Source: Candidatus Wolfebacteria bacterium RIFOXYD12_FULL_48_21 (GTDB taxonomy: Bacteria; Patescibacteriota; Minisyncoccia; UBA6257; UBA9933). From it: 51,162 bases of DNA. Position 1 is the first letter of the stretch; each line of letters opens with the position of its first letter. The notes below the pieces were generated by a model, which was not told the origin of the DNA, made no database searches, and was given only the letters and a program-made list of their open reading frames with translations. The stretch lies in the NCBI GenBank assembly GCA_001793945.1, contig MGIW01000006.1, forward strand, positions 134,179 through 185,340, written 5' to 3'. A program made the translations under genes and the position numbers. Below are positions 49,969 through 50,571 of the stretch, piece by piece.

Positions 49969-50275
49969 GCCGCGGTAGCTCAGCGGTAGAGCGTTGCCCT
50001 GAATCTTCGGGGCCTTCTACAGTAATGTAGATTGAATAACCGGGTGAATTCGGGGAAGGCTGTTGTGAAAGCAACGGATAATCCCGAGCCGAGCTCCATT
50101 GGGTTCGTCATATGACGAAGTGGTGGAGAAGGTGTAGAGACTAGCGAGTGAGTCCCAACAATAATCTTGCAATAGCGCCCGGCTCCGTATCTTGCCATTG
50201 GCAGGACGGAGATGAGATAGTCCAAACTAGCCTTGGAAGAGGCAAGCGTCGGGGGTTCAACTCCCTCCCGCGGCA
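49969..50275 (+). tRNA. tRNA-Phe (anticodon GAA) interrupted by a group I intron
   Basis: 5' exon 49969-50000 and 3' exon 50236-50275. Spliced: acceptor GCCGCGG/CCGCGGC with A73, D arm GCTCAGCGGTAGAGC, anticodon stem TTGCC/GGCAA, loop CT-GAA-GA (C32 U33, anticodon GAA, G37 A38), variable GCGTC, T arm GGGGG-TTCAACT-CCCTC. The stem, loop length of seven and T arm only form if the 235-nt intron is removed. A73 is followed by CCG, so CCA is not encoded. The intron begins directly after U33. A promoter is not obvious apart from TATAAT at 49936-49941. Confidence 0.88.
50001..50235 (+). ncRNA. Group I self-splicing intron in the tRNA-Phe anticodon loop
   Basis: 235 nt. P1 forms between the exon end GCCCT (49996-50000) and the guide GGGGC (50009-50013), giving the required U-G wobble at the 5' splice site. 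The last base before the 3' exon is G (50235). The catalytic core is recognisable: AATCCCGAGCCGAGC (about 50080-50094), AAGGTGTAGAGACTAG (about 50129-50144) and GAGATAGTCC (about 50214-50223), which match the P4, P7 and S elements of the tRNA introns of Anabaena and Azoarcus (IC3 type). AGACTA and TAGTCC form P7. There is no open reading frame, so no homing endonuclease. Confidence 0.88.
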
Positions 50276-50294
50276 CCGAAAGGGATTTGAATAA
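50258..50294. repeat. 37-bp direct repeat, copy 1 (tRNA-Phe 3' end)
   Basis: Runs from the T loop through the acceptor end into 19 nt of flanking sequence. The exact copy lies at 50474-50510. Key parts: CTCCCTCCCGCGGCACC and GAAAGGGATTTGAATAA. Confidence 0.9.
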
Positions 50295-50302
50295 AATAAA
50301 AG

Positions 50303-50329
50303 ACATACTTGTGAGGAGTATGTTTTTTA
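50303..50329 (+). terminator. Terminator of tRNA-Phe
   Basis: ACATAC-TTGTGAGGA-GTATGT followed by TTTTT. The 9-nt loop is identical to the terminator at 50517, while the stems differ. Confidence 0.75.
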
Positions 50330-50342
50330 TTTTTATCTGGTT

Positions 50343-50493
50343 GGTGCCGTGGAGCGGGCAAACTGCTTTGCCCGCGTGGGGAGTTTAAGACCGCAGCGAT
50401 ATGCGCCCAGCAGGGCGCATCGCGAGGGGCGGCCTGCGAGCTCGCTGAGCGACGGCGAAGCGAGACTTGTAGGCAACTCCCTCCCGCGGCACC
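50343..50493. ncRNA. Branched RNA-like structure ending in a copy of the tRNA-Phe 3' end
   Basis: Closing stem GGTGCCGTGG (50343-50352) with CCGCGGCACC (50484-50493). Hairpin A is GCGGGCAAA-CTGC-TTTGCCCGC (50354-50375). Second stem: GGGGAGTT (50378-50385) with AACTCCCT (50475-50482). Hairpin B is GCGATATGCGCCC-AGCA-GGGCGCATCGC (50396-50423). Hairpin C pairs GCCT (50432-50435) with AGGC (50471-50474) and CTCGCT (50441-50446) with AGCGAG (50459-50464). The 3' strand of the two outer stems is the duplicated tRNA end. No open reading frame. Whether it is transcribed separately or only read through from tRNA-Phe is unknown. Confidence 0.55.
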
Positions 50494-50510
50494 GAAAGGG
50501 ATTTGAATAA
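50474..50510. repeat. 37-bp direct repeat, copy 2
   Basis: Identical to 50258-50294 but not preceded by a tRNA body. Confidence 0.9.
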
Positions 50511-50516
50511 TTAAGG

Positions 50517-50545
50517 ATGACCCTTGTGAGGAGGGTCATTTTTAA
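50517..50545 (+). terminator. Terminator after the second repeat copy
   Basis: ATGACCC-TTGTGAGGA-GGGTCAT followed by TTTTT; same 9-nt loop as at 50303. Confidence 0.75.
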
Positions 50546-50571
50546 TTTATAAAACGGCTATTCTTGCTTAA

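Follow-up and report, generated by a model that had tools for sequence, protein, structure and literature searches.

Folded, gene-free elements with arms fitted to the local tRNA recur at tRNA T-loops in Patescibacteriota and are very likely mobile

The window analysed here, a 51,162-nt stretch of contig MGIW01000006.1 from Candidatus Wolfebacteria bacterium RIFOXYD12_FULL_48_21 (6 contigs, 878,700 bases), contains an intron-split tRNA-Phe(GAA) gene and directly behind it a small folded element (50343-50493), which is the subject of this report; the parts of both lie on the forward strand. The tRNA gene (49969-50277) consists of a 5′ exon ending in U33 (49969-50000), a group I intron between U33 and G34 (50001-50235) and a 3′ exon (50236-50277). 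Since the 235-nt intron interrupts the gene, it is not called by ARAGORN at default settings, whereas with introns allowed it is reported as tRNA-Phe(gaa) i(34,235). The intron is absent from the output of the window-wide Rfam search but surfaced in a narrow cmscan as a match to RF00028 at 49991-50245, with 61.3 bits against a gathering score of 50; its exact ends are those predicted from the P1 U.G pair and the final G. ARAGORN also predicts an intron in a tRNA-Asn gene of the same genome (locus L095).

The 3′ end of the tRNA gene is present twice. The first copy, S1 (50258-50277), starts at the T-loop base C56, and the second, S2 (50474-50493), likewise runs from C56 to the tRNA 3′ end, with the identity to the S1 side continuing to 50510. 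The initial annotation had described this as a 37-bp exact repeat (50258-50294 and 50474-50510) spaced by 216 bp, and the repeat is as described, C56 being its true start. S1 is followed by a spacer terminator (50292-50336, stem 50293-50309/50317-50333) detected as inverted repeat I2, and S2 by a second terminator (50511-50550); both carry the loop TTGTGAGGA, as had been noted from the sequence, and the flank type of the second resembles the empty site of a congener (L007 compared with L003 by eye). Between the spacer terminator and S2 lie five elements of the predicted fold: arm A (50343-50352), complementary to the acceptor 3′ strand; the hairpin H1 (50354-50375, loop AACTGCTT); the segment T-left (50379-50385), complementary to the 3′ strand of the local tRNA T-stem and the 3′ half of the T-loop; the hairpin P3 (50396-50423, GCGATA...TCGC), the flanks of which are conserved; and the hairpin P4 (50432-50474, GCCTGCGAG...CTTGTAGGC) with conserved G.U pairs, found at two positions in 9 of 9 sequences of the nine-copy alignment A1. 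Arm A and T-left are the two segments for which complementarity to the second copy had been proposed, and both pairings hold: GGTGCCGTGG (50343-50352) pairs with CCGCGGCACC, and GGGAGTT (50379-50385) with AACTCCC. The branched fold that had been suggested is likewise recovered, with 50340-50545 folding at −123.7 kcal/mol compared with a mean of −76.8 kcal/mol for shuffled sequences (z −9.9; none of 200 shuffles).

The fold is conserved well beyond the window. In an alignment of 64 elements, standard pairs occupy 91.5% of the pair cells, compared with 62.6% after shuffling, and two-sided changes are present in 44 of the 46 pairs. A further 65 second-round elements, which had no part in building the model, give 88.6% against 58.6%, again with 44 of 46 pairs; as both covariance models were fitted to the structure being counted, all these values are biased towards structure, the 65-element set being independent of the building alone. 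Covariation extends over arm A (helices 1-2), H1 (helix 3), T-left (helix 4), P3 (helices 5-7) and P4 (helix 8). H1 has 99% of its cells paired and double changes in 9 of 9 pairs. Pairing is weakest in the acceptor helix (about 73-84%), and arm A is missing in several elements with short spacers (L107, L108, L111 and L118). G.U cells outnumber A.C cells by 364 to 127 in three alignments, an excess inflated by the sense-strand model used for fitting the alignments, and this indicates that it is probably the tRNA-sense strand which folds. A conserved sense-strand fold is thus predicted with good support, so that the earlier suggestion of a new non-coding RNA stands as regards the structure, with the RNA itself being putative. 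The pairings covary in relatives, and the lack of such conservation, which had been named as grounds for discarding the structure, does not apply. A tRNA mimic, in turn, is not supported: the copied acceptor end pairs with an arm that complements the 3′ end of the tRNA, the core and hairpins have no tRNA counterpart, and neither ARAGORN nor cmscan calls a tRNA over 50340-50545. No Rfam (release 15) family scores above threshold over the same region in a narrow search, and the window-wide search returned three tRNAs only.

A search at the DNA level in 61 genomes revealed the core behind other tRNA genes too. A covariance model built from nine copies (R1) has 73 matches in 27 of 81 related genomes (the order set), with up to 15 copies per genome (15 in G074 and 11 in G015), and a broader model (R2) has matches in 44 of 286 genomes sampled across the phylum, for which only ten candidates per genome were scored and copy numbers are therefore lower bounds; genomes G000 and G033 belong to both samples, and all model searches covered genomes of one phylum. 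The arrangement sought behind the tRNA genes of related genomes, as had been proposed, thus recurs widely. The window's own genome has four R1 matches, located behind tRNA-Phe, behind tRNA-Arg(tcg) and near tRNA-Asn, the last interrupted by N runs. A tRNA or tmRNA gene on the same strand lies within 400 nt upstream of 65 of the 73 matches in the order set and of 107 of 119 further matches in the wider set (139 rows less 18 that repeat places in overlapping loci and 2 partial matches), compared with a rough chance expectation of about 1% that assumes 45 tRNA genes in 0.85 Mb. The wider-set targets comprise 105 tRNA genes, in which all 20 isotypes are represented, and 2 tmRNA genes (L114 and L142). 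Among the 12 misses of the wider set, two fall at contig edges, an island in L140 displaces two more, one is in L174, and in L149 and L150 the target tRNA lies kilobases upstream. Target tRNAs bearing introns are found in the window, L130 and L204, and elements have accreted in tandem in G015, G045, G171 and G210. The family contains several core types; in addition, elements behind tRNA-Gly in G002 (L032, 493-737) and G001 (L033, 271-524) share an additional conserved domain, about 90 nt long, within the internal loop of P3. It is, then, a real, widespread and structured element tied to tRNA T-loops. This also excludes an assembly duplication as the source of the second tRNA end, because a congener has the arrangement at the same locus with 88% identity and diverged versions stand behind many other tRNA genes.

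The limits of the added sequence are defined by the tRNA itself. After removal of duplicates, 123 of 172 element/tRNA pairs have an S2 that shares at least 80% identity with the tRNA between base 57 and the 3′ end (80 of them identical). Followed backwards, the identity does not pass C56 in 118 of these 123 pairs, and on the other side it stops no more than 3 nt from the end of the tRNA in 93; the unit so delimited is mostly 110-220 bp long. Empty sites are seen as well. The tRNA-Phe site is occupied in G000 and G001 and empty in G002, where the flank is common to the sequence behind S2 in G001 as judged by eye, which implies that S2 and its flank represent the original locus and S1, spacer and element the added part. 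The same pattern is seen at tRNA-Leu(gag) in genus g166, where the site is occupied in G232 and empty in its congeners G224 and G171, with the same downstream gene in place.

The arms of the elements are fitted to the tRNA behind which they stand. Among 49 of the 73 order-set matches (duplicates and matches that contain N runs or lack a nearby tRNA or a clear H1 were dropped), pairing of the left arms is better with the element's own tRNA copy than with those of other elements, and none of 10,000 permutations reaches the observed mean by any of three measures. At the same time, the nearest core of 78 out of 163 elements is located in the same genome (mean 4 and maximum 13 in 1000 shuffles), and 71 of these 78 stand behind a different tRNA; for this and the sibling comparison, duplicates and rows with N were left out. 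T-left is the better match to its own tRNA in 26 of 38 sibling comparisons, an equal match in 11 and a worse one in a single case, and the duplex energy is lower with the own tRNA in 30 and higher in 7. Together these results indicate that cores spread within a genome while their arms become fitted to the new tRNA. Selection, correction of the near-palindrome and templating on insertion are three candidate routes to such fitting. In family f79 the left half of the hairpin is similar to the flank native to the tRNA gene, a likeness that speaks for templating or correction.

The element is therefore very likely mobile. As to its nature, the account that we lean towards, with somewhat better than even confidence, is that of a non-autonomous mini-element which integrates site-specifically into tRNA T-loops and has the folded sense strand as its working form. 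The mobile unit would comprise, from 5′ to 3′, a replacement tRNA 3′ half, a spacer that often holds a terminator, H1, T-left and the branched core. On insertion at C56, the tRNA gene would be rebuilt with the 3′ half brought by the unit (S1), and the displaced original half (S2) would be left at the far end. The sense strand would then fold with T-left, and often arm A as well, paired to the T-stem and the acceptor 3′ strand of the tRNA. It is in this fold, taken up by single-stranded DNA or RNA, that the element is most likely handled when it moves. Movement would presumably depend on a recombinase provided in trans, with the folded strand as its substrate. Of the initial proposals, that of an element integrating at the 3′ ends of tRNAs fits best, except that what is seen is not the scar of something larger but the element itself, about 110-220 bp long and present in many copies at many tRNA targets.

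Several results weigh against this account. S2 is less than 80% like S1 in 49 of the 172 pairs, so that many of the copies are decayed or wrongly delimited. Excised forms were not seen, viral contigs gave no match to four exact patterns (one of them mis-specified), and BLAST found no match in phages and plasmids. Among genome contigs, a pattern that was off by one base has a single match (L104), which lacks a tRNA and is probably due to chance. No dedicated enzyme was found, and none of the four families tested (PF07508, PF00589, PF00078 and PF01797) explains the presence of the element. The serine recombinase family PF07508 is equally common in carriers and element-negative genomes of the order (15/27 and 30/54) and is weakly associated in the phylum sample (32/44 against 137/242, p 0.047). 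PF00078 (21/44 against 82/242, p 0.09) and PF01797 (20/44 against 107/242, p 1) are not associated with element presence in the phylum sample. PF00589 occurs in 74 of 81 genomes of the order and in 24 of 24 carriers, mostly once per genome with or without elements, and being near-universal and mostly single-copy it is uninformative. Genomes G105 and G169, with at least 7 copies each, are devoid of PF07508, PF00078 and PF01797. A serine recombinase was accordingly rejected as the general mover, although it adjoins the tRNA in G318, and tyrosine recombinase, Y1 transposase and reverse transcriptase were set aside since none has a clear link to element presence.

Serine recombinases nevertheless bear on a second explanation, that the mini-elements are decayed or minimal far ends (the attR side) of larger T-loop islands with a large serine recombinase, similar to the ssrA islands of Dehalococcoides. 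Three such islands, at tRNA-Glu (9 kb) and tRNA-Lys (5 kb) of G318 and at tRNA-Glu of G315 (11 kb), lie next to the tRNA and end at a mini-element with its S2 copy, so that the recombinase stands between the tRNA and the far repeat; this holds for these three islands, the loci of which were chosen partly for a nearby mini-element, and not for the mini-elements themselves. Yet at tRNA-Glu of G318 a further partial tRNA 3′ piece separates island and mini-element, as expected for independent neighbours, 12 serine-recombinase loci chosen by score alone have no mini-element in the stretch examined, and PF07508 is missing from 12 of the 27 carriers of the order (including G079, with four copies) and from 12 of 44 in the phylum sample. 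This origin is thus considered rather unlikely. Integron-like cassettes, with genes held between a tRNA and a distant element, were likewise rejected for G232, G239 and G318, as in each a partial tRNA 3′ piece of 7-19 nt, judged by eye and weak in G232 and G239, precedes the distal element, and these are read instead as separate islands that entered the same tRNA. Two copies in the window's own genome (L095) lie 1 kb apart, but a reading of the interval as cargo was abandoned since N runs interrupt both.

The islands carry genes for DNA methylases, and the one in G239 encodes a TdeIII restriction enzyme together with a methylase and a LexA-like protein. Large serine recombinase genes stand directly behind tRNA genes in L159 (7763-9262), L229, L234, L237, L243 and L248, which suggests that tRNA-targeting serine-recombinase islands are common in the phylum. 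Behind tRNA-Ser in L174 (894-5354), two near-identical elements enclose a TdeIII restriction enzyme, a DNA methylase, a LexA-like repressor and a pPIWI-associated nuclease-like protein, and in L140 (3526-5719) an island with HNH, DUF4145 and unknown proteins lies between tRNA-Gln and displaced elements. The mini-element family also points to the T-loops of tRNA genes as hot spots where restriction-modification islands accumulate. NYN-domain-like proteins adjoin elements in L095 (1047-1541, with a Pfam match) and in L084 upstream of 610 (with no Pfam match). In the window, a 21-nt inverted repeat (50572-50592/50778-50798, 95%) flanks a 185-nt stretch with GTCATCCCGATCCGCC-type sequence, which is similar to sequence near 550-700 of L034 and is probably a separate dispersed repeat.

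A further reading is a gene-free mobile RNA-like element, in which a target-matched guide arm on the folded sense strand pairs with the T-stem and acceptor strand, insertion occurs exactly at the pairing edge (C56) and the arm is rewritten for each new tRNA; we regard this as unlikely. A host non-coding RNA gene that uses the tRNA 3′ end for its own 3′ processing and is kept for a cellular function would also be expected to show strong covariation, together with loops and G.U pairs conserved on the sense strand. Such a gene is quite improbable given the patchy presence (27/81 and 44/286 genomes), the changing tRNA partners, the tandem and truncated copies, and the terminator that often separates the tRNA from the element and leaves hardly any space for a promoter (50336-50343 in the window). 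Template switching of replication at the tRNA terminator hairpin, which would yield direct-inverted-direct copies with no mobility, accords with the one long inverted repeat formed by acceptor, terminator and arm A where a spacer terminator is present (e.g. L113, L116 and L120) and with the flank likeness in f79, and may be a route for refreshing arms, but as the sole origin it is very improbable, as it cannot produce a shared core or H1 at unrelated tRNAs, nor core families within a genome.

No description of such an element was found in the open-access literature, subscription journals and preprints being outside that search. The ssrA-specific islands of Dehalococcoides, mobilised by the serine recombinase DsiB, carry integrase genes and sit at the tmRNA gene only, and the available part of their description (PMC3146451) mentions neither a conserved folded element nor a target-matched arm. 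In the elements reported here the tRNA gene is left intact and a partial 3′ copy lies at the far end, as for tRNA-targeting integrative elements, while the units, at mostly 110-220 bp, are too short to hold an integrase gene. Tycheposons and other elements of that kind similarly use and restore tRNA genes, but are kilobase-sized and encode recombinases, whereas the mini-elements are gene-free. Miniature inverted-repeat transposable elements (MITEs) and repetitive extragenic palindromic (REP) sequences are likewise small, repeated, non-coding and hairpin-forming. The mini-elements, in contrast, have neither fixed terminal inverted repeats nor a fixed target-site duplication, and their T-loop target is fixed while the arms vary with it; the terminal inverted repeats of a parent transposon and the short target duplication that define MITEs are replaced by tRNA-derived ends which differ for each target. 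The bridge RNA of IS110 is comparable, by RNA features alone, in that it is structured and one of its segments complements the target, but the arm of the mini-element pairs in cis with the copied target. Integron attC sites and cassettes share a folded single strand, an extrahelical insertion on one arm, an apical variable part and tandem units in one orientation. They differ in that the mini-elements have no GTT core at the S2 junction, where the bases before C56 are core bases and not TT (118/123), that they have no cargo of their own and that their arms match the host tRNA; no integron integrase was found among tyrosine recombinases surveyed by PF00589, with no search aimed at the integron type. 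Elements of about 110-220 bp that move between all kinds of tRNA with target-fitted arms match no system that we can name, and the family, which accounts for the surplus tRNA 3′ ends of these genomes, has the look of a mobile element of an undescribed kind. If the fold is indeed its working form, it would represent either a folded attachment site of a new kind or a system of RNA-directed insertion, in bacteria whose genomes are among the smallest.
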